64,000 bases of DNA from NCBI GenBank assembly GCA_903883645.1, contig CAISBR010000004.1, positions 1-64,000 of the forward strand. Reading direction: 5' to 3'. Shown in pieces: positions 43,176 through 58,769 of the stretch; position 1 is the stretch's first letter, and each line of letters opens with the position of its first letter. The notes beneath the pieces are model-generated. The model saw only the letters and a list, made by a program, of their open reading frames with translations. It did no database searches and was not told the DNA's origin. The position numbers were made by a program, and so were the translations under genes. The DNA is from an uncultured Myxococcales bacterium. Its GTDB lineage: Bacteria > Myxococcota_A > UBA9042.

Positions 43176-44987
43176 TTAAGCCGAGAGTTTGCGGGCAATT
43201 AGCATCCATGCCAGCGGCAGCACAAACGCACCGATGGTGGCAAGTGCCCCCCAATTGCGCAAGCGGGCGGCCAGATCGTCGCGACCGACAGCATGGGCGC
43301 GGTACTCGGCGATAACTTGCAGCGTGGCGATGCCGATCGAGGCATAGGCGGCAAAATACGACCAATCGACGACCGTCAGGTAGCCGACTTCGGGCAGGTG
43401 GCCGGCCGTATTGACCTGCAACTCGACCGCGCATAGCAGGGCCAACACCGTTAAAAGCAGCTTGGCATCTAGCTTTTCGGCGGGGATGAGGCTCGCTGCC
43501 AGCGCCATTAGCACCATCAGCAGCAGGGGCGCCAAGTCGGCCACGGCAAAACGCAGCACTTCGCGGCGCACATCGACAACAAAGTTGTAACGACTAAAGA
43601 ATTCGGTGGGCCCATACTGCGACTTGACCTCTTCGGAGCGCACCGCCACCAACTGCCAGTCGTGCAGCGAGAAGTTAGGGCCCAGGCGCTGGTCGAGGGT
43701 CAGCTTGGCCTCGGGGTGCCAGCGCGTCTCGCAGTGGAACACCAGCTGCCCGTACTGCAACAGAGGGTGTTCAAACGCTAATTCGAAGCGCTGCGCATCG
43801 AACGGGTAGGCGTGCAGGTCAAAATGGCTGCGGGCGCGCCCGTGCATCCGCCAGTTGAGGCTGTGCCACGGACCGTGCGGCTCGTAGCCGTTGGGGGTGA
43901 TCTCGACCTCGTCGGCGTTCATCACCTCGAACGGCCGCGGATCTTCGGGACCCATGCGCGGATCGAGCCAGCGCAGCTCAAGCGTCGCATCAAAGGTAAA
44001 GGTGCCTTTTTGCAGGTCAATCGCGCTAATCGCAATCAGCCAAACCGTTACGCGCACATCGATGGGCTTGTCGAGCGGCCCACCGCGGGCATAGGCATCG
44101 GCGGCACCCAGATGCAGGGGCAGCGGCGAGGGCATGGCGGCGGTGGCGCGCTGGAGACTGCCCAGACCGGGATCGGCGGTGCGCAGTAAATCGCTTTGAT
44201 TCCAAATGGCTTCGACCAGATCGTCGACCTGCAGGCGCGGCAAGGCAGCCCGCCCCACCAGCACCTGCGGAACGGACAGCGTCACCACCTGTTTGTCGCC
44301 AAGCTTTTGAAATTGAGCGCGATCCACGGTCGCCACCTGCCACGGCCAGGCCGACTCGGGCAGTTCTTTGGTCGACGGCAGCGACAGCCAGTGATCGCCC
44401 GCCGCCAAAGCCGCTGTAAGGCTCGCATCCTCGGGCGCCACCACGGCAAACGCGGCATCGACCTGCCCGGCGTGCAGCGCGGCCAGAGGGTCGGCGGACA
44501 TCTGCACTTGCACCGCAGCCCGCGCCAGGCCGGCGTGCTCAAGCAGCACCAGCAGCGCCTCGCGATCGCCCGTCGCCGTCGCCGCCAGGGCCACCCGCTT
44601 ACCCTGCAACTGGTCGAGCGTCTTCAGATCTTGCCGCACCAGCACGGCCAGGTAGGTGGTATGCAGCACGGCAATGGCCCGCAAGTCCTTGTGCGGCTCT
44701 TGGAAGCGCCCGGTACCCAGCCACGCCGCCCGCGCCAAGTCAGCCCGCGCTACGGCCAGCGCATGACCCGGCTGAGCGAGCAATTTCTCTAGATTATCCA
44801 GCGATCCCGCAGTGGCAGTGGGCGTCACTACCTCGCCGCCGGGCACCGCCTGCGCCGCCTGCGCCAGACCCGCCGCCAAGTGCGCCTCGGCCTTGCCTGC
44901 CGGCCCCGAAAAGATGGGCAGCGCGTGCGCCGCTGGGGCCAGCAGCAGCAGCGCAAAGAGCAGGCAAGCCTGGGCCCATGCTCTCAT
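43176..44987 (-). CDS. Pentameric ligand-gated ion channel fused to a TAXI-type solute-binding domain
   Basis: A 603-residue protein from ATG 44987, which overlaps the peptidase stop (ATGA). After a signal peptide (RAWAQACLLFALLLLAP), residues about 25-300 match the TAXI family of TRAP solute receptors: FSGPAGKAEAHLAAG, TAGSLDNLEKL, ARADLARAAWLG, LQGKRVALAATATGDREALL, HAGQVDAAFAVVAPED, and the terminal LPLHLGAADAYARGG (compare PLHPGA..YY). Residues about 305-475 are a Cys-loop-type ligand-binding domain without the disulfide: TFTFDATLELRWLDPRM, AYPFDAQRFELAFEHP. Then four transmembrane helices: VADLAPLLLMVLMALAASL (M1, conserved Pro), LLLTVLALLCAVELQV (M2, pore) ending HLPEVGYLTVVDWSYF (the LP..Y.T..D signature), M3 and M4. 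It should form a homopentameric inner-membrane channel gated by a periplasmic ligand. Confidence 0.85.
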   Translation of the reverse strand: MRAWAQACLLFALLLLAPAAHALPIFSGPAGKAEAHLAAGLAQAAQAVPGGEVVTPTATAGSLDNLEKLLAQPGHALAVARADLARAAWLGTGRFQEPHKDLRAIAVLHTTYLAVLVRQDLKTLDQLQGKRVALAATATGDREALLVLLEHAGLARAAVQVQMSADPLAALHAGQVDAAFAVVAPEDASLTAALAAGDHWLSLPSTKELPESAWPWQVATVDRAQFQKLGDKQVVTLSVPQVLVGRAALPRLQVDDLVEAIWNQSDLLRTADPGLGSLQRATAAMPSPLPLHLGAADAYARGGPLDKPIDVRVTVWLIAISAIDLQKGTFTFDATLELRWLDPRMGPEDPRPFEVMNADEVEITPNGYEPHGPWHSLNWRMHGRARSHFDLHAYPFDAQRFELAFEHPLLQYGQLVFHCETRWHPEAKLTLDQRLGPNFSLHDWQLVAVRSEEVKSQYGPTEFFSRYNFVVDVRREVLRFAVADLAPLLLMVLMALAASLIPAEKLDAKLLLTVLALLCAVELQVNTAGHLPEVGYLTVVDWSYFAAYASIGIATLQVIAEYRAHAVGRDDLAARLRNWGALATIGAFVLPLAWMLIARKLSA

Positions 44988-47170
44988 TTCCACGCCTCGG
45001 GCAACTGCAAGCCAAACTGCTGCACCAAGAAGGTCAGCCGGTCGGTGGCCTCGTCGATCTGCTTGGTGGTGGGCTTGCCGGCCCCATGCCCAGCGCGCGT
45101 CTCGATCCGCACCCGAATCGGCGCCGGACCGCCCTGAGCCGCCTGCAACGCCGCTGTAAACTTGAACGAATGCGCCGGCACCACCCGATCGTCGTGGTCG
45201 CCCGTGGTCACCAGCGTGGCGGGATAGGCCGTACCCTTGTGCAAGTTATGAAGAGGACTGTACTTGTATAGCCACTCGAAGGCCTTGGCATCGGCACTGC
45301 TGCCGTACTCGGGCACCCAGCCCCAGCCGATGGTGAACAGGTGGTAGCGCAGCATGTCCATCACCCCCACCGCCGGCAGAGCAGCGCCAAATAATTCAGG
45401 CCGTTGCGCTAGACACGCGCCGACGAGCAGCCCGCCGTTGCTACCGCCCGCGATCGCCAAATGCGCCGAGGTCGTCCACTTCTCGCGGGTGAGCAGCTCG
45501 GCCGAGGCAATGAAGTCGTCAAAAACATTCTGCTTCTTTCCTAGCTGCCCAGCTTGATGCCAAGCCTCGCCAAACTCGGCACCGCCGCGCAGCACCGCCA
45601 CCGCCAGCACGCCGCCCGCCTCGATCCAAGCTTGCAGGTCGGGCTTGTAAAACGGCGTCATCTCTACAGAAAACCCGCCATAGCCGTACAGGTAGGCCGG
45701 CGCCGAGCCATCGCGGGGCAGGTCGCTGCGGGCAGTGACAAAAATCGGCACCCGGGTACCATCTTTGCTAGTCGCATAGCGCAGTTGCGTACTGTACTTT
45801 TCGGCGGGCAGACCGCGCTTGGCGTCGAAACGCACCTGCAGCTCGCCCTTGTCGAGGTTGGCGTGGTATACCCGCGCCGGCGCCAAGAAGTCTACGTATG
45901 CAAAGAACAAATTGGCATCACCCGCGTGGCCCGACAGCCCCACCACCGAGCCCAAACGCGGAAACGTCGGCGCGGGCAGCGGCTTGCCCTGATAGTCCAC
46001 GAATTCGAGCTGATGCGAGGCATCGACCAGCTTGCCCAAGACGATACCCTTGCCCGCCAACACCGCGAACGACAAGGTAGAATCCGCCTCGCCCTGCACT
46101 TGCCGCCACCCCGCAGGCAGCGGCCCCACCGGCTTGTCGCTGTCGAGATTTGCCGCCTTGTGCAGGTCGAGCGCCAGCAGCCGGCCCCGCGGCGCACCCC
46201 AATCACTGCGCAAGAACAGCTGGTTACTAGCCACACCCGCCACTTCGAACGCGCCGCCAAAGCCGCTCGCCAGCTGCCGATTGGGACCCAGACCTTTGGT
46301 CGTAATTTCGCGAACATCCAAGCCATTCTTCGACTCGGCGCCGCGCGAGGTGGTCAAAAGCCACCAGTGCCCGTCGTCGCTCACCTCGACGCCAAAGCCC
46401 CACTCGGCCTGCGCGGCGTTCTCGTGCACCACCGCGTCGGCCGACTGCGGCGTGCCCAATTTGTGGAAGCACACCTTCTGGAACTTGTTGACACCTGTAA
46501 GCGTTTCGCCCGCTTTGGGCGCGTCGTAGCGGGAATACCAAAAGCCGCTGCCGTCGGGATGCCAGGCGATCGAGCTAAACTTGACCCATTGCAGTACGTC
46601 GGGCCGATCGGCGCCGCTGTCGACCTCGCGCACGTGGATCTCGTTCCAGTCCGAGCCGCCGCTCGCCAGGGCATAGCCCAGCAACTTGCCGTCGTCACTG
46701 GGCGAAATCGTCTGCAAGAACAGGGTGCCGTCGCCCGCCGCCCGATTGGGATCGTACAGAACCTTGCACGTGCGCTCGTCTTGCGGCGCCCAGCACAGCA
46801 CGGCCTGATTCTGCAGCCCGTCGTTGTGCCGCCAAAATGCCCGCCCGCCCCGCAGCGTAGGCGCCGTTTCTTTCGGAAAATCCCAGATCTGCGCGAGATG
46901 CCGCGCCAACACCGGCCGCTGTGGCACCCGATCGAGCAGCGCCCGCGTGGCCAGGTTCTGCGCTTGCACCCACGCCTGCGTCTCGGCACTGTCTTGCTCG
47001 AGCCAGCGGTACGGGTCGGCGACTTTGTGGCCATGGTAGTCGTCAACCTGGTCGCTGGTGCGCGTCGGCGGCGGCTGCGGCAGCTCGGATTTCGCAGGCG
47101 TCGCAGGCTGTTGAGCAGGCGAGGAACAGGCGACGGCAAGGGCAAGCAACCAAAGCAGCGATGGGCGCAT
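44984..47170 (-). CDS. Prolyl oligopeptidase (S9A), lipoprotein
   Basis: A 728-residue serine peptidase. The N-terminus MRPSLLWLLALAVAC carries a lipobox (Cys15), so the enzyme is envelope-anchored. Propeller-domain features: DYHGHKVADPYRWLEQDSAETQAWV, YSRYDAPKAGETLTGVNKFQ. Catalytic domain: AYLYGYGGFSVEMTPFYKP, Ser in LAIAGGSNGGLLVGACLAQ (GGSNGG), Asp in TTGDHDDRVVPAH, His in TRAGHGAGKP. These are all the catalytic elements. S9A enzymes cut after proline in peptides below about 30 residues. Translationally coupled to the channel fusion; divergent from the reductase at 47344. Confidence 0.92.
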   Translation of the reverse strand: MRPSLLWLLALAVACSSPAQQPATPAKSELPQPPPTRTSDQVDDYHGHKVADPYRWLEQDSAETQAWVQAQNLATRALLDRVPQRPVLARHLAQIWDFPKETAPTLRGGRAFWRHNDGLQNQAVLCWAPQDERTCKVLYDPNRAAGDGTLFLQTISPSDDGKLLGYALASGGSDWNEIHVREVDSGADRPDVLQWVKFSSIAWHPDGSGFWYSRYDAPKAGETLTGVNKFQKVCFHKLGTPQSADAVVHENAAQAEWGFGVEVSDDGHWWLLTTSRGAESKNGLDVREITTKGLGPNRQLASGFGGAFEVAGVASNQLFLRSDWGAPRGRLLALDLHKAANLDSDKPVGPLPAGWRQVQGEADSTLSFAVLAGKGIVLGKLVDASHQLEFVDYQGKPLPAPTFPRLGSVVGLSGHAGDANLFFAYVDFLAPARVYHANLDKGELQVRFDAKRGLPAEKYSTQLRYATSKDGTRVPIFVTARSDLPRDGSAPAYLYGYGGFSVEMTPFYKPDLQAWIEAGGVLAVAVLRGGAEFGEAWHQAGQLGKKQNVFDDFIASAELLTREKWTTSAHLAIAGGSNGGLLVGACLAQRPELFGAALPAVGVMDMLRYHLFTIGWGWVPEYGSSADAKAFEWLYKYSPLHNLHKGTAYPATLVTTGDHDDRVVPAHSFKFTAALQAAQGGPAPIRVRIETRAGHGAGKPTTKQIDEATDRLTFLVQQFGLQLPEAWK

Positions 47171-47343: not shown

Positions 47344-48123
47344 ATGATCGAACCAATTCTTGTGGGCGCCGGGCGGATTGGCCTGGCCTTGGCGCGGCGA
47401 GCCGAGACGAAAGGCACGCCCACACAGCTACTTGGCCGGCACGACCGTTGGGATGTGCTTGACCAGCCGGCCGGGCAGCCGATCGCCCTATGTGTGCGCA
47501 ACGACGACTTGGCAGTGGTGCTGCCGCGCATCCCCCAGCATCGCCATTGCGATCTGTTGTTTCTGCAGAATGGGATGTTGCGCGATTGGCTGGCGAAGCA
47601 GGGGCTGGCCCAGGCGAGCCGCGGTCTGCTGTTTTTTGCTGTAGCCGACCGTACTTGTGACCCGGCGCCCGGCGGTGTCAGCCCGCTATGGGGCCACCAT
47701 GCCCAAGAGTTTGCCAACTGGCTGAACGCGCTCGACCTGCCGGCCGCGGCGGTAACGGCGCAGGAGTTCGCCGACATTGAACTCGAGAAGCTGCTTTGGA
47801 ATTGCTGCCTTGGTGTGGTGTGCCAGGCGCAGCACTGTACGGCAACAGAGGCCGCAACGGTGTACGCCTCACAACTAGCTGACTTAGTAGCCGAACTGGC
47901 GCAAGTGGGCCGCCCGGCGCTGCGGGCGCAGGCAGACAATGAGGCATTAACCCAGCGAATTATCAGCTATAGCCTGCAGCTTGGTGATTATCGCGCCGCC
48001 GTCAAAGAATGGCCTTGGCGCAATGGCTGGTTCGTGGCCGAGGCCAAGCGGCGCAACATGGCTTGCCCACTGCATGATCGGCTGCTGCACCAGGCGATGG
48101 GCGAGAGTGCTGGCGCGGTCTAG
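47344..48123 (+). CDS. Ketopantoate-reductase-like oxidoreductase
   Basis: A 259-residue protein. EPILVGAGRIGLALARRA is a Rossmann start; the middle contains ADRTCDPAPGGV and a helical domain with FADIELEKLLWNCCLGVVCQ, similar to the KRKLxxN region of ketopantoate reductase and related 6-phosphogluconate-dehydrogenase-like enzymes. Typical Asn/Lys residues are only partly conserved, so substrate is uncertain; a broader hydroxyacid oxidoreductase is possible. It ends by overlapping the 3' end of the convergent lipoprotein gene by four bases. Confidence 0.6.
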   Translation: MIEPILVGAGRIGLALARRAETKGTPTQLLGRHDRWDVLDQPAGQPIALCVRNDDLAVVLPRIPQHRHCDLLFLQNGMLRDWLAKQGLAQASRGLLFFAVADRTCDPAPGGVSPLWGHHAQEFANWLNALDLPAAAVTAQEFADIELEKLLWNCCLGVVCQAQHCTATEAATVYASQLADLVAELAQVGRPALRAQADNEALTQRIISYSLQLGDYRAAVKEWPWRNGWFVAEAKRRNMACPLHDRLLHQAMGESAGAV

Positions 48124-48485
48124 GGTTTGCAATAGCCCTTGCCGTTGCAGCCGGCGCCACTTGCTCCGCCCGGGCAGTCGGCGGCAGTTTTGCACGGCAG
48201 CGTACAGCGTTTGATGCCATCGCCGTAGGCAAAACAGGTCATGGCCGACGGGCAAACGCCCGCTGCGGGGCACGCCTCGCCAAAGCCCGCTGGGCCCAGG
48301 TGATCCCCGGCGCCGGCATCGGCAGCCGTGCCTGTGGCCGCATTGGCCAGGGCCGTGGCGTCGGTAGCGGTCGCGGCGGGTTGGGCGGCAGTCGATGCAG
48401 ACTCGGTCTTGGCGCACCCAGATAGTGCCCAGCTCGCCAACGCCCCCAGCAGCAGCCCTTGCAGTACCTTGTTTACCCGCCTCAT
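48120..48485 (-). CDS. Small lipoprotein with C-terminal CPGGASGAGCNGKG module
   Basis: 121 residues from ATG 48485, which overlaps the upstream gene stop (ATGA). MRRVNKVLQGLLLGALASWALSGC is the signal (Cys24). After an Ala/Thr-rich linker (about 25-70), the C-terminal 50 residues hold a Cys-rich module (CPAAGVCPSAMTCFAYGDG, CPGGASGAGCNGKGYCKP). It is almost identical to the end of the 720-residue protein at 51134-53296. Function unknown; the module may be a disulfide-stabilised binding domain. Confidence 0.78.
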   Translation of the reverse strand: MRRVNKVLQGLLLGALASWALSGCAKTESASTAAQPAATATDATALANAATGTAADAGAGDHLGPAGFGEACPAAGVCPSAMTCFAYGDGIKRCTLPCKTAADCPGGASGAGCNGKGYCKP

Positions 48486-49255
48486 CGCGCCCCCTTGCCG
48501 ACCCCGCCGCCCACGACGAGCAGGCAGCCGGCGTCTTGGATATCGCCGCCCTTGCTGGCGTTTCGCCCCGTTCCGCATTGCGCGCCGAGCCACAGCGGCC
48601 CCAGTGTGCGCCGTGCACCAAGGTGGATGTGGTCCGCTGTGCCCTCGCCACCGGCTAGGACAGCGCTGCGCACGCCCCACGACTCGGCCGAAATGGTCCA
48701 CACATCAGTTAGTTGCCAGGCCGCCGCAGCTTCGTAGCGAGTCCGGCGGTCGTCGCCCGTCAGTCCGTCGATCGCCAGCACGGCCGAAAGATGCACCCGC
48801 CCGAACCGCCCCGCCACACCCGCGCCCAGTTGTGCCGTCGACGGCCGCGTCGCCTGCAGGCGTACCCGGGCGCCCGCCGTCAAGAAGGGGTGCCAGTTCT
48901 CGCCGACCGGCAGCACCACCGTCGCCAGCGGCGCTAGGCCCGCCACGCGCACATCGCTGCTCGAGAGTTGGCGAAAAGCGCCCTCTAGGCTGACTTGCAG
49001 CGGCCCAACTAGCCCCGCGCGCAGGCTAAGCCGTTCGTTTACGCCCTGATACTGCCCCGTGCCGCTGCCCACCCCACCCTTGACGGGCGAGAGCGGCCGC
49101 ACCACTTCGGCCCCCAGGCTGGATTGAACCTCGAGCGGTCGGAGGCTGATGGTGTCTTGCACGCGCACATAGGCCGGAGCATCGGCATACGCCGTCGAGC
49201 CAGCGACCGCGCTGACTAGCAGGACTGCAAAGACGAAGGCACCGCGCGTCGCCAT
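48482..49255 (-). CDS. Secreted outer-membrane beta-barrel-like protein
   Basis: A 257-residue protein with a signal peptide ending in STAYADAP. The mature part has alternating strands (RVQDTISLRPLEVQSSLGAEV, ERLSLRAGLVGPLQVSLEGAF, RYEAAAAWQLTDVWTISAESW, HIHLGARRTLGPLWLGAQCG), typical of a small outer-membrane barrel of about eight to ten strands. No specific family is recognised. It is upstream of, and coupled to, the small Cys-module lipoprotein and seven bases downstream of the P-domain/collar protein, so these are likely one operon. Confidence 0.65.
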   Translation of the reverse strand: MATRGAFVFAVLLVSAVAGSTAYADAPAYVRVQDTISLRPLEVQSSLGAEVVRPLSPVKGGVGSGTGQYQGVNERLSLRAGLVGPLQVSLEGAFRQLSSSDVRVAGLAPLATVVLPVGENWHPFLTAGARVRLQATRPSTAQLGAGVAGRFGRVHLSAVLAIDGLTGDDRRTRYEAAAAWQLTDVWTISAESWGVRSAVLAGGEGTADHIHLGARRTLGPLWLGAQCGTGRNASKGGDIQDAGCLLVVGGGVGKGAR

Positions 49256-49262
49256 CGCCGTC

Positions 49263-51002
49263 TTACTGCTTGATGCAGTAGATGAGACCTACATAAGGCG
49301 GCAAGTGATTGGTGAAATTGGTCCACGTCCACGTGTTTTGGCCGCCCGAGGCGACGGTCTGCTGCGACTCGCCCTGCCATTCGAAGCCGACGTAGCTGTA
49401 CGAACCCGGCGAGTGCCAAGTGCCCGGGCCACGCTGGGTGTAGCCGCCGATGCGGTAGGTGTGCGAGCCGCCCACGCTGCCGAGCGCCACTGTGCCACCC
49501 TGGGGCAAAGGACCGACGCCGAGGGCAAGGCGACCGCGCATGTCGGGGGTACCGTTTGCCCCATCCGCCGCCACCCAGCCCGCCGGGCAGGTATTCAGGT
49601 TGAAAGGCGCGACCATGCCCGACAAGAACGAGGCGCCGCCCACCGTCAGGCCGCCATCGACGATGAGGTCGCCCTTAATCTCGATCTTCTTGTTCGACAG
49701 CGTTTGGATGTTCACGGACCAGCTGAACTTGCCGTCGAAACCACCGGAGCCGCCACCCGATTTCAGGTCCTTGACCGTAATGGACCACTGCCCGGCGATA
49801 TCTTTGCCGACCCAGTCCAAGTCCATATTGCCAGAAACCAACGCCAAGTCTTTGTTGAAGTTGGTGGTCAGGGCCGTGCCGGTCTTGTTGCCGTTGTAAA
49901 GGACATACGGTGTCGCCATCTGCGGGCCATAGAGCTCGATGCGCACACCCGACATGTCCGAGTTGGTCACCTGCACGTTGATCCAAATCTTTTGCGCTTG
50001 GCCGATGCTCGGAAAGTTAAGCGTGTCGGTGGTGCCTGGGCCAAGGCCGTCTGGAATCACGATATTGCTCTTGCCGGCAGTGGAGTCTGTGAATTGATTC
50101 CAGATTAGACCGTTCGAGACCTCGTCGATCAAGTCTGGCGCGATGGCCGATGCGACGCACGCGTACGAGCCGTCGCTGTTGATGCCGTTCATAACGAGGC
50201 CGGTGCCGCAAGTCTTGCCGAGCTGGGTCGGCGTGGGCGTGCCGCTCAGGTCGGCATAGCTGCCGCTGGCGGCGACCTTGGCCAGGCTCGACGCTTTGAC
50301 GTAGCCCGCCAAGTCGGCACTTTTTGCGTATGCAGCGAGGTCGGTTAGCTTGGCGTAGCCACCTAAGTCGGTGAGCTTGGCGAACGCGCCGAGGTCGCTC
50401 GACTTGGCATAGGCGGCGAGATCGGTGAGCTTGGCGAGGCCGCTCAGGTCGGGACCGCCGTTCAGGTCGGTGAATGCTCCCGTGGTGGCCACTTTGGCAA
50501 GGTCAGATACCTTAGCGTAACCACTCATAATTTTTGGATCAACTTGGGCCGCCGTAATGCAGCCCGTGCAATCCATGCTCTCGGCCACGGCGGCGCGCAT
50601 GGCAAAGGCTGTAGCCAAAAGCGGTCGGCGCGGCAGTTCCGTATCGGTTCCCACTTGCAAACCAACCCATAGCGCGGCACCGGTCAAGACCGAGCCAGTG
50701 AGCGGCGACTTGGCGCCCAGAACGGCGCTCCATGTGCCAGCTTTGACGCCGACCGGGAGCGGGCCTTCCATCCAGATGGGGTTACCACCAGACTCATCTT
50801 TGTAAATCGCAAAGGTAAGCTGGTAATTACCGTCGGGAGCAGCACCTCCGGTCGAAGTCAGCGTACCTTCAATGCCGATGGTAGGGGGGACCGCTGCCTG
50901 GGCCGAGGCACTACCGAACAGGAGGCAGATCATGGCGACCTGCCAGCTCGCGCGCGCTGCCCAGATGCGCGCCGCCGTGGTCCAATTTCCTTTGCTTTCC
51001 AT
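49263..51002 (-). CDS. Surface fibre protein: 9-residue repeats, P-domain-like sandwich and phage-collar-like C-terminus
   Basis: A 579-residue protein with a signal peptide ending SASAQAAVPP. An N-terminal beta domain (about 40-140) precedes six or so 9-residue repeats AKxxDLxx(Y/F) (about 190-243), the pattern of trimeric fibre stalks. Residues about 320-435 resemble a proprotein-convertase P-domain (TLNFPSIGQAQKIWINVQV, YVLYNGNKTGTALTTNF, DIAGQWSITVKD). The C-terminus (about 465-579) resembles the phage tail collar domain: CPAGWVAADGANGTPDMRGR and NHLPPYVGLIYCIKQ. GGGAG lies upstream of the ATG. It may be a phage-fibre-derived adhesin or an appendage subunit. Confidence 0.75.
   Translation of the reverse strand: MESKGNWTTAARIWAARASWQVAMICLLFGSASAQAAVPPTIGIEGTLTSTGGAAPDGNYQLTFAIYKDESGGNPIWMEGPLPVGVKAGTWSAVLGAKSPLTGSVLTGAALWVGLQVGTDTELPRRPLLATAFAMRAAVAESMDCTGCITAAQVDPKIMSGYAKVSDLAKVATTGAFTDLNGGPDLSGLAKLTDLAAYAKSSDLGAFAKLTDLGGYAKLTDLAAYAKSADLAGYVKASSLAKVAASGSYADLSGTPTPTQLGKTCGTGLVMNGINSDGSYACVASAIAPDLIDEVSNGLIWNQFTDSTAGKSNIVIPDGLGPGTTDTLNFPSIGQAQKIWINVQVTNSDMSGVRIELYGPQMATPYVLYNGNKTGTALTTNFNKDLALVSGNMDLDWVGKDIAGQWSITVKDLKSGGGSGGFDGKFSWSVNIQTLSNKKIEIKGDLIVDGGLTVGGASFLSGMVAPFNLNTCPAGWVAADGANGTPDMRGRLALGVGPLPQGGTVALGSVGGSHTYRIGGYTQRGPGTWHSPGSYSYVGFEWQGESQQTVASGGQNTWTWTNFTNHLPPYVGLIYCIKQ
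50274..50435 (-). repeat. Six tandem 9-residue (27-nt) coding repeats
   Basis: Within the fibre-like protein, AKLTDLAAY, AKSSDLGAF, AKLTDLGGY, AKLTDLAAY, AKSADLAGY and VKASSLAKV follow without gaps. They are encoded by 27-base units of related sequence. Confidence 0.7.
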
Positions 51003-51133: not shown

Positions 51134-53296
51134 TTACGGCTTACAGAACCCCTTGCCGTTGCAGCCGGCGCCGCTTGCACCGCCTGGGCAGTCCGCGGCC
51201 GAGGTGCACGGAATGGTACATAACTTTCCAATAGTAAACGCAAAACACACCATCGGCGCCGGACATACGCCGTTGGCAGGGCAAGGGTCACCAAAGCTTG
51301 CTGCCGACCCGCCGCAGTCACCCGGGCAGCTGCTGGCCGTCTCGCCCGAGTCGCATGTGCCGTTGCCGCACGCGGCGCTGACACACTGACCGGCGCTGCA
51401 TGTCTGGCCCGCGGCGGCGCAGTCGGTGCCACTGGTCGACCAGCCCGAGCCGTCGGCTAGGCAGACCTGCACGGTATTGCTGCTGCAGTTGGCGGCCCCT
51501 GGTGCACAAACCTGTGCTTGGCAGACGCCCGCTTGGCAGAATTGTCCGGTGCCGCAGGTTTGTAGCGCGGTAGGGCTAACCCCCAACGCATCGCACTTCA
51601 TTGCAACATTACCTTGACAATAAAGGGGATTTTGCGGGTCACACAGCAAGCTGACGCACGCGCCGGCCGAGCAGATCTGGCCGCTTGAGGTGCAGTCGCT
51701 GCCCCCGGATACAAAGCCCGAGCCGTCGGCGTTGCAGACGGTCGCGACCGTGCCATTACAGGTCAACTTTGCAGGATTGCATAGGATTGCCTGGCATCCC
51801 GGCGCGCCACCTTGACCGCTACCGCAGTAGGTGCTGGGTGGGCAGATCTGCCAGCTGAGCACCGCTGTGCCATCGCTGTTGCAGGTGCTGAGCTTGGCGC
51901 CGCTGCACGCCGTGGCCCCGGCCGCGCAAACTACATCTTTACACTGCCCTTCTGAGCACTTCTGCGCGCCGCACGCCTGGCCGCCACCCTGCCAACCCGT
52001 GCCCGAGGCGTTGCATGTCGCAACCACATTCTCTTGGCAAGTTGTTGAATTTGCACTGCAGACTAGAGGCAGACACGAACCGCCGGCACAGGCCTGCCCG
52101 CCGGCACAGGGGGCAACGACCGAACCTGACAGGCCATTCGCCCCGCACAGCACCACGTCGCCACCTACGCAATACGTCGTGTTTGGCGTGCAAGTGGTTG
52201 GAATGCAAGACCCCGCAACACAAACTTGGCCGCCGCACGCCTGGCCTGGACCACTTGGCCCCGAGCCCTGTGGGTTGCACACCTCGACCGCGTTGCCCAC
52301 GCACGTGGCCTGATTGGGCAGACACACCTGCTCTAAGCACGCGCCGCCGCTGCAGTAGTAGCCGGCGCCACAAGTCTGGGTCGCCCAAGCGGACTGGCCA
52401 TCGCTGGCGCAAACCATCACCTGATTGCCTTGGCAGCTCTGGCTTGCGGGCGCGCACAAAGTGGCCGCGCAGTGGTCGCCGAGGCACACTTCGCCGGGAG
52501 CACAGGCCTTGGTGCTGACCACCTTTAACCCATCGCTGGCACACACCTGCAACTGCGCGCCCACGCAACTGATTCCGGGCAAGCATGTCCAAGCCGCGCA
52601 CACCGGGATGGCGCCATCGAGAGTGCACGTGGACTGCGCCGGGCATGGATCGGGCGCGGACAAACTGCTGCCGTCGCTGTTGCAGGTCAGGCGCGCGTTG
52701 GCCTGGCAGATGCCTTGGCCGGGGCTGCAGATGTCGGTGGTGCACACGCCGGTGCCAGCGGGGCCAAAGGGCGCACAGAATTGACCGGGCGCACAGTCAA
52801 GCGATGCCAAGCATTTTGTGCACTTTCCCTTGCCTACGTCGCAATGGGGGGTGTCGCTCGGGCACTGGCCATCGCTGGCGCACGGCAAAAATGGCCGACA
52901 AAGGCCTGCGTCGCAGCTATGGTTGCTAGCGCAATCAGCGATCGTGGAGCAGGCAGTGAGCGGTAGGCAATGGTGGCCGATGCACTCGTGCTCGCCGCTG
53001 CATTGGGCGGCCGACATGCAGGCCACGCAACGACTGGTAATCGGGCTACAAATCGGCTTATCAGCCGGGCATTCACCGTCGCTGGCGCAGGGGATGCCGG
53101 TCGCTGTCGCGTCGCCCGCAGTGTCGCTACCTGAGACTTCGGCGCCCGCCTCACCCACTAGGCTATCGCTGACGGCGCTGTCGCCGGCCACCGAACTAGC
53201 AGGCGCGGCGGCTGGGTTGCTGCTACACGCCAACCCCGCCACCACAGTCAACATCGCCAGCGGCACAAGTTCAATAATTCTCTGCAATAGGCCCAT
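51134..53296 (-). CDS. Cys-rich repeat lipoprotein, 720 residues
   Basis: From ATG 53296 (MGLLQRIIELVPLAMLTVVA followed by GLAC; lipid Cys24). A Ser/Ala/Gly/Asp linker (about 25-70) leads to a first Cys-rich region with CASDGECPADKPIC-type units. Then come about eight repeats of around 50 residues of the form C-x-GN-x-V-x-V-C-x-x-x-G...C-x-x-G-Q-x-C-x-x-G-x-C (for example CVGNAVEVCNPQGSGPSGPG, CSSNTVQVCLADGSGWSTSG). It ends with CGNGTCDSGETASSCPGDCG and the C-terminal module CPANGVCPAPMVCFAF...CPGGASGAGCNGKGFCKP. Probably a surface stalk or adhesin. Just upstream of the fibre-like protein; function unknown. Confidence 0.8.
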   Translation of the reverse strand: MGLLQRIIELVPLAMLTVVAGLACSSNPAAAPASSVAGDSAVSDSLVGEAGAEVSGSDTAGDATATGIPCASDGECPADKPICSPITSRCVACMSAAQCSGEHECIGHHCLPLTACSTIADCASNHSCDAGLCRPFLPCASDGQCPSDTPHCDVGKGKCTKCLASLDCAPGQFCAPFGPAGTGVCTTDICSPGQGICQANARLTCNSDGSSLSAPDPCPAQSTCTLDGAIPVCAAWTCLPGISCVGAQLQVCASDGLKVVSTKACAPGEVCLGDHCAATLCAPASQSCQGNQVMVCASDGQSAWATQTCGAGYYCSGGACLEQVCLPNQATCVGNAVEVCNPQGSGPSGPGQACGGQVCVAGSCIPTTCTPNTTYCVGGDVVLCGANGLSGSVVAPCAGGQACAGGSCLPLVCSANSTTCQENVVATCNASGTGWQGGGQACGAQKCSEGQCKDVVCAAGATACSGAKLSTCNSDGTAVLSWQICPPSTYCGSGQGGAPGCQAILCNPAKLTCNGTVATVCNADGSGFVSGGSDCTSSGQICSAGACVSLLCDPQNPLYCQGNVAMKCDALGVSPTALQTCGTGQFCQAGVCQAQVCAPGAANCSSNTVQVCLADGSGWSTSGTDCAAAGQTCSAGQCVSAACGNGTCDSGETASSCPGDCGGSAASFGDPCPANGVCPAPMVCFAFTIGKLCTIPCTSAADCPGGASGAGCNGKGFCKP

Positions 53297-53344
53297 GCCG
53301 CGTCGCCTGCGACGGTCGCCCCCGGCAACGCCCATCGCGCTACC

Positions 53345-56300
53345 TTACTTGCAGGTGGCGGCGCACGCGACGTCGATCTGGTAGTCCTCGACCGCGTCTT
53401 GGTAGCCGTCGACCACGATGAAGTACTTCTTGCCCTTTACGCCGGCGAAGGTCTTGGTGGCCGTGGTGCCCATCATCAGCGCGTGGCTGGTGCATGAGCC
53501 GGGCCCGCAGGTCTTGCTGCCATCTAAGATGAACAAGTCGACGTAGTTACCGCTCGTGCTCGACGTCTTCTTCAGCGTAACCGTCACATCGCCGGTGCAG
53601 GTGGCATCGTACGTGTAGGTGTACTCGGGGCCCGTGTAGTCGGCCTCGGCGCCGTCGGCGCACTGCCAGCTGTCGATCACATCGGTGCTGCCGGTTGTGC
53701 CGTTGTTGTACTGGTCGCTGCCACCGCAGGCCAGGCTGTAGTCAGAAACGCATTGCGGGGCGGCGACCTTGCAGGCGGGATCGGCCGCGCAATCTGTGTC
53801 GGCGCAGTCGGTTTGGCCGTCTTTGTCGTCGTCGATCTTGTCGCTGCAGTTGGTCTCGGTGGTGGGCGCGGCGCAGCTGCAGTCGACCTTCAGCGTATAG
53901 TTGCCGTTGTAGTTGTTGTAGCCGTCGGCGACCACGTAGTAGGTCTGGCCCTTCTTGGCGGTCCAGGTAGTTTTGCTGGTGGTGCTGCTCATCAGGCCGT
54001 GGACCAAGCAGGCATTGCTGGTGCAGGTCTTGGCGGCATCCAGCACGAACAGGTCGATGTAGCCCGAAGTCGTAGACGTTTTGGTCAGCGTGGCGGTTAC
54101 CGGCCCATCGCACGCGGCGACATAGGTGTACGTGTACTCCGAGCCAGTCTCGCCGGTCATGCTGCCGTCGGCGCACTGCCAGTCGCTCACCACCTTGGTC
54201 GAGCCGGTGCCGTTGTTGCTGTAGCTATCCGAATCGCCGCAGCTCATCGGGTAGTCGGCCTTGCACTGGGTGGCGGCGAGGCAGGTGGCGTCTTTGGCGC
54301 AGTCGCTGTCGGCGCAGTCGGTCTTGCCGTCTTTGTCGTTGTCGACCTTGTCGCCGCAGTTGGTCTCGGTGGCCGGGGTGCTGCAGGCGACGTCTTTGGC
54401 GCAGTCCGTGTCGGCGCAGTCGGTCTTGCCGTCCTTGTCGTTGTCGACCTTGTCGGCGCAAAGCACTTCCGTGCCGGCTACGATGCAGGCGGCGTCTTTG
54501 GCGCAATCGCTGTCGGCGCAGTCGGTTAGGCCGTCTTTGTCGTCGTCGACCTTGTTGGTGCAGCTGGTCTCGGTGGTGGCGCCGCACTTGCAGGTGGTCT
54601 TGATGCTGTAGTTGGCCGAGTACGCGTTGTAGCCGTCGACCACGATGCTCAACTTCTGGCCGTTCTTGACGGTGACGGTCTGGGTGGCGGTGGTGCCGCT
54701 CATCAGCGCGTGGGCGACGCAAGCGTTGCTGCCGCAGGCCTGGCCGCCATCGAGCAAGAACAGGTCTAAGTAACCGCTGGTGGTCGAGGTCTTGGTCACC
54801 GCGACCGTCAGCTGGCCGTCGCACGAGGCGGTGTAGTCGTAGGTGTATTCCGCGCCGGTCTCGCTGCCCATCGTGCCGTCTTGGCACACGTAGGTGCTGA
54901 CGACCTTGGTCGAGCCCGTGCCGTTATTGCTCCACGAATCCGAGCTATTGCACGCGAGCGGATAGTCCGGGACGCAGGCGCACGCACCCTTGCCCGAGCA
55001 GTCGGGGTCGGCGCAATCGACCAAGCCGTCGGCGTCGTTGTCGACCTTGTCGGTGCAGTTGGTCTCGCCGGCAGGCGCGATGCAGGCCGCGTCTTTGGCG
55101 CAGTCGGCGTCGGCGCAGTCGGTCTTGCCGTCTTTGTCGTTGTCGAGCTTGTCGGCGCACAGCGTCTCGGTCGTGCCGCCGGTGCAGACGGGGTCCTTGG
55201 CGCAGTCGCTGTCTAGGCAGTCGGTCTTGCCGTCTACGTCGTTGTCGATCTTGTCGCCGCACGCGGTCTCGACCGTGGGGGCGCAGGCCAAGTTGGTGGC
55301 GCAGTCGCTGTCGAGGCAGTCGAGCTTGCCGTCTTTGTCGTTGTCGATCTTGTCGGTGCACGAGGTCTCAACCGTGGGCGCGCAGGCCAGGTCCGCAGCG
55401 CAGTCGCCATCGAGGCAGTCGACCAACTTGTCGCCATCGTTGTCGATCTTGTCGGTGCAGTTGGTCTCTTTGCCGCCTTCGCAGCCGCACGTAATCTTGA
55501 GCGTGTAGTCGGCCGCAAAGCCCTGGTAACCATCGACAACTACAAAGTACTTGGCGTCTTTCTTGGCAGTAAAGGTCTGCGTGGCCTGCGTCGACGACAT
55601 CAGCGCGTGGGCGATGCACGACGACGAGGCGCAACCCTTGGCCGCGTCTAGGATAAACAAGTCGAGGTAACCCGCCTTGGTGCTCTGCTTAACCAGCGTG
55701 ACGACCACTGGGCCATCGCAGCCCGCGGTGTAGCTGTAGGTGAACTCGGCGCCGGTCTCGCCGTTGACGTTGCCGTCGGTGCACGCGTAGGCGCTGAGCG
55801 CGCTGGTCGAGCCCTTGGCGTCGCTGGTGCCCTTCTCGTTGCCGCCGCAGGTGGTGCTGGCCGCGTCGACGCACTTGTTGGCTGCGCAGGCGACGTCGGC
55901 CTTGCAATCGCTGTCGCCACAGTCGGTTAGGCCGTCTTTGTCGTCGTCGATCTTGTTGCCGCAGTTGGTCTCTTTGCCGGCGCACGCCGCGTCTTTGGCG
56001 CAGTCGCTGTCGGCGCAGTCCGTAGCGCCATCTTGATCGTCGTCGAGCTTGTCGGCGCAGTTGGTCTCGGTGGTGGGCGCGGTGCACTGCTTCTTGCAGA
56101 GCGTGCCGACTTCCTCGACACAGGTAACGTCCCAAGCGGTCTTGCAACAGAACGGGTCGGCCTTGCACACGGTCGCGGCGCAGGCATCGCAGCCGATGGT
56201 CAGCGGCGTGCCACTCTCGAGGCAAACATCGCACTTACTCGCGCACTTGCTGTCTTTGGCGCAGTCGCTGTCGGCGCAGTCGGTAAAGCCGTCTTTGTCG

Positions 56301-57505
56301 TCGTCGAGCTTGTTGCCGCAGTCGGCCTCGGCCACAAGCGCGCACGCGGGGTCCTTGGCGCAGTCAGTGTCTTGGCAATCGAACTTGCCGTCGACATCGT
56401 TGTCTTTGCCGTCGGTGCAATTGGTCTCGGTCGTCACGGTCGAGGCGCACGCAACATCGACGCTGCAGTCGTTGTCTTTGCAGTCCGTAAAGCCGTCGCC
56501 ATCGTCGTCGATGCTGTTGCTGCAGTTCTTCTCGGCGGTCTTGCAGGCATTGTCGGCGGCGCAGTCGGCATCGGCGCAGTCGGTCTGGCCGTCTTTGTCG
56601 TCGTCGACGCCGTCGGTGCAGTTCGCCTCTTTGGTGGGGTTGATCAAGCAAGCCGCGTCTTTGCCGCAGTCGTTGTCGGCGCAGTCGGTCTGGCCGTCGC
56701 CGTCGTCGTCGACCTTGTTGGCGCAGTCGATCTCGCTGCTGGGCTTCTTGCAGGCGTTGTCCGCGGCGCAATCGCTGTCGGCGCAGTCGGTAGCGCCGTC
56801 TTTGTCGTTGTCTTGCTGGTCTTGGCACGCCGTCTCGGGCCCTACTGACTTGCAGGCCGTATCCGACGCACAATCATTGTCAGCACAGTCGGTTAGACCG
56901 TCTTTGTCGTCGTCTTGGGCGTTGCCGCAGTTGGTCTCGGGGCCGGTTTGGCAGGTGCCGTTGGCCGTGCCCTTGCAAGCGCCCGCCGTGCAGGTGTCGT
57001 CGCTGGTGCACTTGTCGCCATCGTCGCAGGGCGCCTGGTTGTTGGTCGCCACGCAGCCGGTCTTGCTATCGCACTTGTTGTCGGTGCAGGGGTTGTTGTC
57101 TTGGCAACTGGTCGCGGTGCCGCCCTGGCACTTGTCGGATTTGCAGGTGCGGCCGGCAAAGCACTTGTTGCCGTCGTCGCAGGGGTCGCCCTCGGCCGAG
57201 GGGCCGGCCTTGCATACACCTGCGGCGCACCACGCTTTTTCGCACGCGGCGAGGTTGGTCACCTTGCCCACGCAGTCGTCGTCCGTCGTGCACCCGGCCG
57301 CCGTGTCGGGCTTGGTCGTATCGAGCTTGGCGGTATCGTTCACCTGGGTGGAGTCGCCCAGATTGACGCCCATGTCATCGCCCGCGACGTCTTTGCCGGT
57401 CGTCTGCTGCGTCTGCGAGGAGCCGGAGTCACCACAGCCGACGGCGACGAGGCCGAGCAGCGCAGTGAGAGCCAAGGACCAACGAATCGTACTGAAATTC
57501 ATCAT
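53345..57505 (-). CDS. Giant Cys/Asp-rich lipoprotein with four PPC-like domains
   Basis: 1386 residues from ATG 57505 (MMNFSTIRWSLALTALLGLV...AVGC; GGAG upstream). An acidic linker is followed by Cys-rich CDDGxxCxxxxxC units (about 60-180). Then comes a long series of repeats of the type ETNCxDKxDNDKDGxTDCADxDC, which look like calcium-binding DxDxDG loops stabilised by disulfides. Interspersed are four related beta-sandwich (pre-peptidase C-terminal-like) domains, marked by GETGAEFTYSYTAGCDGPVV, GYLDLFILDAAKGC and FVVVDGYQGFAADYTLKITC, at about residues 570-670, 870-970, 1105-1210 and 1282-1386. It is probably an extended, calcium-rigidified surface protein. Upstream of and co-oriented with the rest of the cluster. 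Confidence 0.8.
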   Translation of the reverse strand: MMNFSTIRWSLALTALLGLVAVGCGDSGSSQTQQTTGKDVAGDDMGVNLGDSTQVNDTAKLDTTKPDTAAGCTTDDDCVGKVTNLAACEKAWCAAGVCKAGPSAEGDPCDDGNKCFAGRTCKSDKCQGGTATSCQDNNPCTDNKCDSKTGCVATNNQAPCDDGDKCTSDDTCTAGACKGTANGTCQTGPETNCGNAQDDDKDGLTDCADNDCASDTACKSVGPETACQDQQDNDKDGATDCADSDCAADNACKKPSSEIDCANKVDDDGDGQTDCADNDCGKDAACLINPTKEANCTDGVDDDKDGQTDCADADCAADNACKTAEKNCSNSIDDDGDGFTDCKDNDCSVDVACASTVTTETNCTDGKDNDVDGKFDCQDTDCAKDPACALVAEADCGNKLDDDKDGFTDCADSDCAKDSKCASKCDVCLESGTPLTIGCDACAATVCKADPFCCKTAWDVTCVEEVGTLCKKQCTAPTTETNCADKLDDDQDGATDCADSDCAKDAACAGKETNCGNKIDDDKDGLTDCGDSDCKADVACAANKCVDAASTTCGGNEKGTSDAKGSTSALSAYACTDGNVNGETGAEFTYSYTAGCDGPVVVTLVKQSTKAGYLDLFILDAAKGCASSSCIAHALMSSTQATQTFTAKKDAKYFVVVDGYQGFAADYTLKITCGCEGGKETNCTDKIDNDGDKLVDCLDGDCAADLACAPTVETSCTDKIDNDKDGKLDCLDSDCATNLACAPTVETACGDKIDNDVDGKTDCLDSDCAKDPVCTGGTTETLCADKLDNDKDGKTDCADADCAKDAACIAPAGETNCTDKVDNDADGLVDCADPDCSGKGACACVPDYPLACNSSDSWSNNGTGSTKVVSTYVCQDGTMGSETGAEYTYDYTASCDGQLTVAVTKTSTTSGYLDLFLLDGGQACGSNACVAHALMSGTTATQTVTVKNGQKLSIVVDGYNAYSANYSIKTTCKCGATTETSCTNKVDDDKDGLTDCADSDCAKDAACIVAGTEVLCADKVDNDKDGKTDCADTDCAKDVACSTPATETNCGDKVDNDKDGKTDCADSDCAKDATCLAATQCKADYPMSCGDSDSYSNNGTGSTKVVSDWQCADGSMTGETGSEYTYTYVAACDGPVTATLTKTSTTSGYIDLFVLDAAKTCTSNACLVHGLMSSTTSKTTWTAKKGQTYYVVADGYNNYNGNYTLKVDCSCAAPTTETNCSDKIDDDKDGQTDCADTDCAADPACKVAAPQCVSDYSLACGGSDQYNNGTTGSTDVIDSWQCADGAEADYTGPEYTYTYDATCTGDVTVTLKKTSSTSGNYVDLFILDGSKTCGPGSCTSHALMMGTTATKTFAGVKGKKYFIVVDGYQDAVEDYQIDVACAATCK

Positions 57506-57671
57506 GATTCTCCAAGACAACCGGGCATTCGGGCGCCAAATAGGGGTCAAGAGGGTACGGATCAGGGCAGTCTGCGTCAAGCAAAACCAGGTGCCCAGCT
57601 TGTGACATTTGTGCAAACGCTGGCCGCGCGCCGCTTCCCCTTGCCGCCACAATTCCGCTAACCTAGGGGCC

Positions 57672-58769
57672 ATGAACTGGCGCGTGTTTGGGCTGATCCT
57701 ACTTATTACAATGGGTTGTCGACGCAGCCCGGCGCCGATGGCTACACCGCACGCGGTGCCAGAGCCTCAGGCCGTCTTGGCCAACAAAGCCCTAGATTTG
57801 TTCAGGGATGCCACCATCACGGGTAATCCGCCGGCAGGAGCGCCGGACTTGCTGCAAGCGATCGCGGCGATCAAAACCGAGGCGACCAAGCCGGCCCTGG
57901 GCAAGCTGGCCGCGCTGGCGACCCCGGCATCGGTGGCACGGCTGGCTGACCGCACCCGCACCGAGGCGGGGCTGGCGGGGCGACTGCCGCTCACCCCGGG
58001 CAGCGTCTTGGCGCGCTTTGCCAGTAAAATCGAGGCTGTAGAGTACCTTGGCGCGCGGGCGGCGGTGCGCACCGTGGGCAAGCCCCAGCCGCAGACCTCG
58101 TGGTTCTACTACCGCAACGGCGCCTGGCTGCTCGACTTGGCCGACACGCGGGCGCTGCAGCCGGCGTGGACAGGCCCCATAAACTATGAGAATCACTCGG
58201 TAACTCTGGCGCAGGCTTTGACTCCGAGCGGCGATCCGCAGCAGCCCCTGGTCGTGACGCTGCATAGCGACAAGGGCGACGTCCACTGCCTGCTGCACGA
58301 GCAGCAAATGCCCGAAATCGTGGCACATTTTGTAGGTCTGGCCACCGGCGCGCGGGCATCGCGCAAGGCCGAGGCGCGCACCATGGAAAACGTGTGGCAG
58401 CACAAGCGCTTCTACGATGGCACCGTCATTTATCGCGCCCTGCCCGGCCGGCGTATCGAGGCGGGCGACCCCTTCAGTCTCGGCACGGGTCACGCCGGTT
58501 TTCGTCTGGCCGATCGCTTCGATCTCAGCCTGCGCCATAGCATTGCTGGGGTGCTGGGTCTGCTGCCGCTCGGGCCGCACAGCACCAGCTCGATCTTCTA
58601 CATCACGCTGCAGGCCGAGCCCGATTTCGACGATCACGGCGTGATTTTTGGCCTGTGCCGCGATCTCGACGTGGTCGACCGCTGGAGTCGCCAGCCCAAA
58701 GGCAGTATTGTACTGAATCATTTCGACTTTTCGCGCGGATGGCCCAGCGAGGCGCCCGCCCCGCATTGA
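57672..58769 (+). CDS. Cyclophilin-type peptidyl-prolyl isomerase lipoprotein
   Basis: 365 residues from ATG 57672 (AGGGG upstream). MNWRVFGLILLITMGC gives lipid Cys16. The first 180 residues are an unassigned helical/beta region. From about residue 195 is a cyclophilin-type domain: VVTLHSDKGDVHCLLHEQQMP, FYDGTVIYRALPGRRIEAGDP (compare FHRVIPGF..QGGDP), GVLGLLPLGPHSTSSIFYI (compare SGSQFFI) and FDDHGVIFGLCRDLDVVD (compare HVVFG). The active-site Arg (in YRALPG) is present, while several other catalytic positions differ, so activity is likely weakened. It may fold envelope proteins. Confidence 0.78.
   Translation: MNWRVFGLILLITMGCRRSPAPMATPHAVPEPQAVLANKALDLFRDATITGNPPAGAPDLLQAIAAIKTEATKPALGKLAALATPASVARLADRTRTEAGLAGRLPLTPGSVLARFASKIEAVEYLGARAAVRTVGKPQPQTSWFYYRNGAWLLDLADTRALQPAWTGPINYENHSVTLAQALTPSGDPQQPLVVTLHSDKGDVHCLLHEQQMPEIVAHFVGLATGARASRKAEARTMENVWQHKRFYDGTVIYRALPGRRIEAGDPFSLGTGHAGFRLADRFDLSLRHSIAGVLGLLPLGPHSTSSIFYITLQAEPDFDDHGVIFGLCRDLDVVDRWSRQPKGSIVLNHFDFSRGWPSEAPAPH

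Follow-up and report, generated by a model that had tools for sequence, protein, structure and literature searches.

The window, a 64,000-nucleotide stretch of DNA from an uncultured Myxococcales bacterium, carries a gene whose predicted product combines a signal peptide, a repetitive stalk, a segment resembling the P-domain of proprotein convertases, and a C terminus resembling the collar of phage tail fibers. This raises the question of what such a chain is for and whether it belongs to a phage or to the cell.

Architecture of the fiber protein

The gene had been placed at positions 49263 to 51002 by a first-pass annotation that gave no strand. These coordinates indeed delimit a complete open reading frame (ORF) of 579 amino acids with an ATG start, located on the minus strand, as are all parts of the fiber described below. 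Along the chain, the signal peptide is followed by an N-terminal beta-sandwich domain (N-domain), a CTGC motif, the stalk, the P-domain-like segment, and the collar-like C terminus. The signal peptide (residues 1 to 36, positions 50895 to 51002), recognized by inspection, is a hydrophobic N-terminal helix (residues 7 to 28 in the structure model) with a predicted cleavage site between AQA and AVPP, and its start is kept in the relatives. The protein is apparently a secreted one, and it is encoded on the chromosome. The N-domain (residues 37 to 144, positions 50571 to 50894) was modeled with a pLDDT of about 95 and is found in 36 loci of the genome. At its border with the stalk lies the C-T-G-C sequence (residues 145 to 148, positions 50559 to 50570), which corresponds to a conserved CxGC motif.

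The stalk (residues 149 to 264, positions 50211 to 50558) has a period of 9 residues. The six tandem AKxxDLxxY repeats first reported there are present as repeats, but their number is only approximate, since five exact consecutive AKxxDLxx[YF] units (residues 190 to 234, positions 50301 to 50435) are flanked on either side by degenerate ones (AKVSDLAKV and VKASSLAKV). Shuffling the protein sequence 20,000 times never yielded more than one unit. The stalk also matches PHROG 30808 (residues 134 to 255, E value of 2e-12), yet a tblastn search with the stalk found no match among 50,697 phage records, and a phage origin of the stalk was rejected.

In the window protein, neither the match to P_proprotein (PF01483; residues 339 to 423, E value of 0.0065, 17 bits versus 21) nor that to Collar (PF07484; part of the model, E value of 0.013, 15.9 bits versus 24) reaches the Pfam gathering threshold. 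Because of this, independent support was required for each domain. In the case of the P-domain, P_proprotein was matched by 20 of 35 paralogues (best E value, 8.6e-10) and by all 15 collar-tipped relatives (best E value, 1e-10), and sibling proteins reached 36 and 33.8 bits. Structure prediction, whose matches are independent of the Pfam score, gave the same answer. A first AlphaFold model, for which 15 sequences were aligned, was poor, with a pLDDT of 50 overall, and a deeper alignment raised this value to 72, the low-confidence regions being the collar tip and most of the stalk; the P-module itself reached about 95 in the second model. With these two models from different alignments, Foldseek placed furin, Kex2, and the Aeromonas protease ASP at the top (E values of 5e-5 and 1e-5), ranks 1 to 27 and 1 to 22, respectively, being occupied by P-domain-bearing subtilases. 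The P-domain noticed at first reading is therefore real. Together with a Cys-containing linker, it forms a shaft module (residues 265 to 440, positions 49683 to 50210). This module shares the beta-sandwich fold of the P-domains of proprotein convertases and bacterial subtilases; however, the window chain has no protease domain, and its P-domain is a shaft element common to the paralogues.

The collar-like tip and its surroundings

The tip (residues 459 to 579, positions 49266 to 49628) matched a PHROG tail fiber family with an E value of 1.8e-5. We aligned it with its relatives, 15 members from genera g1, g5, and g6, and found that CPxGW..ADG..TPDxxGR and a terminal PPYxGxxxCxK are conserved. 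The profile of these 15 relatives matched the phage tail fiber 9qgo (PDB) with an E value of 2.2e-10, which bears out the collar likeness first noted by eye; a profile search without a collar match had been named as a possible refutation of it. Homology searches with the tip also retrieved seven phage records, five of them annotated as tail proteins. Furthermore, a sibling from another species of the genus (L099:3-995, on G001:C12) combines the same P-module as the window gene with a full Pfam Collar tip (51.8 bits, 57 of 57 positions). This tip matches 325 phage records, with 40 to 46% identity over 96 to 99% of the tip among the matches listed. Taken together, the profile match of the relatives, the Collar tip of this sibling, and a further variant establish at the family level that collar-type tips are carried on the fiber scaffold. 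Compared with phage tail collars (PF07484; 9qgo), the window tip has the CPxGW...DG...TPDxRGR core and the C-terminal PPY...K in common, but it is divergent, sits on an apparently exported bacterial protein, and lacks phage genes nearby.

The further variant occurs on the fiber scaffold in L096, L097, L117, and L126, with the signature CPxGW...GKHxH...PYxQLLxCQK. Its GxHxH-type motif recalls metal-binding phage fiber tips, and it has no Pfam Collar match. Nine window-like collar-tipped fibers, in three groups of three, are found in L085, L086, and L087 of genome G009, with further family members nearby in L086. A separate protein of 383 residues outside the fiber family (L045:2509-3657, on G000:C150) has a hydrophobic stretch around residue 130 and a genuine Collar domain that scores 68.3 bits.

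The neighbors of the window gene encode an aldehyde dehydrogenase, a HAD hydrolase, a prolyl oligopeptidase, a ketopantoate reductase-like protein, a radical SAM protein, LepA, and lipoproteins. These are ordinary metabolic genes and lipoprotein genes, and none of them matched a phage structural family. The absence of phage genes nearby, as claimed in the first-pass annotation, thus holds, and no prophage or tailocin cluster, looked for as evidence against a cellular role, was found around the gene.

The fiber gene lies in a same-strand run with the genes for a 733-residue Cys-rich lipoprotein, a barrel-like protein of 257 residues (positions 48485 to 49255, minus strand, 7 bp downstream of the fiber), and a small lipoprotein whose gene overlaps that of the barrel. 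Within positions 48120 to 49255 (minus strand), the Cys-rich C terminus of the small lipoprotein resembles that of the upstream 733-residue one (positions 51137 to 53335). We considered the barrel as a conserved partner or anchor, but no homologue was found beside the other fiber genes of the genome, and it therefore cannot be a general anchor. Homologues occur in only 2 of 21 other genomes of the family, G009 and G010, where they are unlinked to fiber genes; both genomes carry collar-tipped fibers. Adjacent lipoproteins were likewise rejected as regular partners (they made up 9 of 54 adjacent genes and 19 of 219 distant ones; Fisher P = 0.13), and no candidate anchor or exporter conserved beside the fiber genes was found.

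Two other proteins of the window deserve mention. The first (positions 43179 to 44993, minus strand, 605 residues) has a TAXI/NMT1-type binding domain (NMT1_3, E value of 9.5e-31), after which come a weak match to the ligand-binding domain of neurotransmitter-gated channels (4.9e-5) and hydrophobic segments; it may be a ligand-gated channel to which a sensor domain has been added. The second (positions 53348 to 57673, minus strand, 1,442 residues) contains many DNDKDGxTDCxDxDC repeats and repeated beta modules and had no Pfam match at an E value of ≤0.001.

The paralogue family and its exchanged tips

The genome (5.99 Mb, 244 contigs) contains 38 ORFs with an N-domain and/or a P-module, dispersed across many contigs. 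Two of these ORFs, each located at a contig end (C80 and C173), overlap by 141 identical bp and probably represent a single gene. We therefore count about 37 loci, a number that could drop slightly because of other contig-end fragments. The P-module is present in 21 of the 22 genomes searched in the taxonomic family: there are 32 copies in the window genome, 19 to 26 in five congeners, 67 in G009, and 1 or 2 in genus g6, while G007 has none. This expansion is lineage specific and includes tandem arrays sharing one tip type.

The loci of the window genome have the N-domain and the stalk in common, but their C-terminal tips are diverse. Sixteen of 35 paralogues end in a fibrinogen-like GGGWT domain; one matches TLD and one the glycine-rich domain of ALK/LTK, and others are Cys rich or of unknown type. 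The fibrinogen-like domain of bacterial GGGWT proteins (NF040941) is thus a frequent tip here, although it is absent from the window gene. When clustered by similarity, the tips fell into a group of 19, a group of 6, and 7 singletons, one of which is that of the window gene. Among the 119 pairs of P-modules that are at least 60% identical, 75 carry unrelated tips. The clearest case is that of the adjacent genes L042:12426 and L042:15015, whose P-modules and N-domains are 88% and 78% identical, respectively, and whose tips have no similarity. Scaffolds up to 88% identical thus bear unrelated tips, indicating that tips have been swapped. N-domain and P-module identities also correlate weakly with each other (0.33). 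Recent gene conversion was rejected, as long near-identical DNA is absent between scaffolds with different tips; 100% DNA identity was confined to the 141-bp overlap of the two contig ends and to an overlap between ORFs.

The length of the stalk varies in steps. The distance between the CxGC motif and the cysteine of CGTG ranges from 48 to 138 residues, and 23 of the 24 distances measured equal 3 modulo 9. This corresponds to steps of 9 residues (period of 9, Rayleigh P of about 7e-10, which is a guide only because the paralogues are not independent and cases missed by the search pattern are not counted).

The initial reading of the gene as a fusion that recruited a collar was therefore incomplete: a collar-like tip without adjacent phage genes is supported, but the gene is one of about 37 paralogous fibers with exchangeable tips and not a one-off.

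Proposed role and comparison with known fibers

The domain order, the multigene family, the swapping of tips, the 9-residue steps, the relatedness of the tip to phage tail fibers, and the absence of adjacent phage genes all support the view that the gene is a member of a lineage-specific mosaic repertoire of surface fibers with interchangeable recognition tips, which we regard as probable. Following this model, the signal peptide would export the chain and the conserved N-terminal sandwich would attach it to the surface of the cell. A shaft adjustable in length step by step would be made up of the 9-residue-repeat stalk and the P-domain module, and the C-terminal domain would act as an interchangeable recognition tip, in the window gene a collar-like one related to phage receptor-binding tips. 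With about 37 loci bearing different tips, the cell could recognize a wide range of ligands; glycans on the surface of other microbes are the most plausible ones, as with the MAT (mosaic adhesive trimer) fibers of Bdellovibrio. By inference, these fibers would trimerize, be displayed at the surface through their N-domain, bind glycans, and serve in predation or attachment.

Other roles were weighed against this one. The fibers could be structural or developmental, forming a sheath, a biofilm matrix, or cell-cell contacts, with tips that bind self rather than prey or foreign surfaces. The many copies per genome and the lineage-specific expansion with tandem arrays of one tip type would suit such a role; however, the diversity and swapping of tips on near-identical scaffolds, including a phage receptor-binding tip, fit varied foreign ligands better, and we consider a matrix function rather unlikely. 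It is less likely still that the chains are secreted substrate-binding fibers that retain polysaccharides or particles close by: the folds of fibrinogen-like and lectin-like tips generally bind carbohydrates and a congener apparently comes from groundwater, but no carbohydrate-active enzyme domain was found in the chains of the 35 members scanned. Finally, that the gene is a true tail fiber left over from a prophage, a tailocin, or an extracellular contractile injection system is suggested by the PHROG resemblance of tip and stalk and by the phage-like identity of the sibling tip, but it is largely refuted, and hardly credible, given an apparent signal peptide that phage fibers would not need, housekeeping neighbors, about 37 paralogues on many contigs, and the near-ubiquity of the P-module in the family.

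We return to the repertoire of surface fibers and to its best known parallel, the MAT fibers of Bdellovibrio bacteriovorus. These are surface-displayed trimers, one of which binds bacterial glycans; there are 21 paralogues with variable tips, including phage-like and lectin-like folds, and tips have been swapped (PMC10769870). The first-pass annotation was right about a collar-like tip on an apparently secreted protein with no phage genes nearby, and the protein may, as it proposed, be an adhesin or appendage, but it missed this described system of the same design. Our literature search found only three papers that mention mosaic adhesive trimers by name and no paper on bacterial P-domain/collar fibers.

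Some differences are clear. The shaft of the window family consists of the 9-residue-repeat stalk and the P-domain module, the latter unreported for MATs, whereas several MATs have a beta-helix (PMC10769870). The main text of the MAT paper does not mention collar or fibrinogen-like tips (PMC10769870). Conversely, no Pfam match to the S74 peptidase/chaperone tip was found among the 35 paralogues; this tip is also lacking in 8 of the 21 Bdellovibrio MATs. As for the N-domain, we scanned for NCBIfam NF053851 (Bdello_MAT_N), whose curated cutoff is 60 bits. The best paralogue in the protein scan scored below it (21.4 bits, E value of 1.7e-4), and no match was listed for the window protein itself. 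Nevertheless, 23 of the 52 genomes scanned in the class had a match with an E value of ≤0.001, compared to none of 14 controls, suggesting that the N-domain is distantly akin to Bdello_MAT_N. Since no match in the 52 genomes reaches the curated cutoff, we liken the family to MATs in its working but do not class it as MAT.

MATs have been described in one predator, and the spread of such kits, their anchor, and the origin of their tips are wider questions. The window lineage bears on them: the genomes of several of its species hold between 19 and 67 copies of the P-module, tips have been swapped, shaft lengths are quantized, and one sibling tip is plainly of phage type. This opens the exchange of tips between phage and cell to sequence-based tests, and the family offers natural binding tips on separable scaffolds. 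More tentatively, an uncultured deltaproteobacterial family outside the Bdellovibrio group may possess a large arsenal for recognizing prey or partners, with a MAT-related base, a P-domain shaft, and tips taken directly from phage receptor-binding proteins. If so, phage host-recognition domains would serve as bacterial recognition domains.

Overall, both systems place a conserved beta-rich N-domain of ~130 residues directly behind a signal peptide, and they have in common a large set of paralogues (21 there, about 37 loci here) and a constant N terminus with diverse, swapped C-terminal tips, phage-like and lectin-like folds among them. We thus read the window family as a MAT-like mosaic adhesin repertoire which, by analogy, would form trimers, be displayed at the surface, bind ligands, and perhaps serve in predation.
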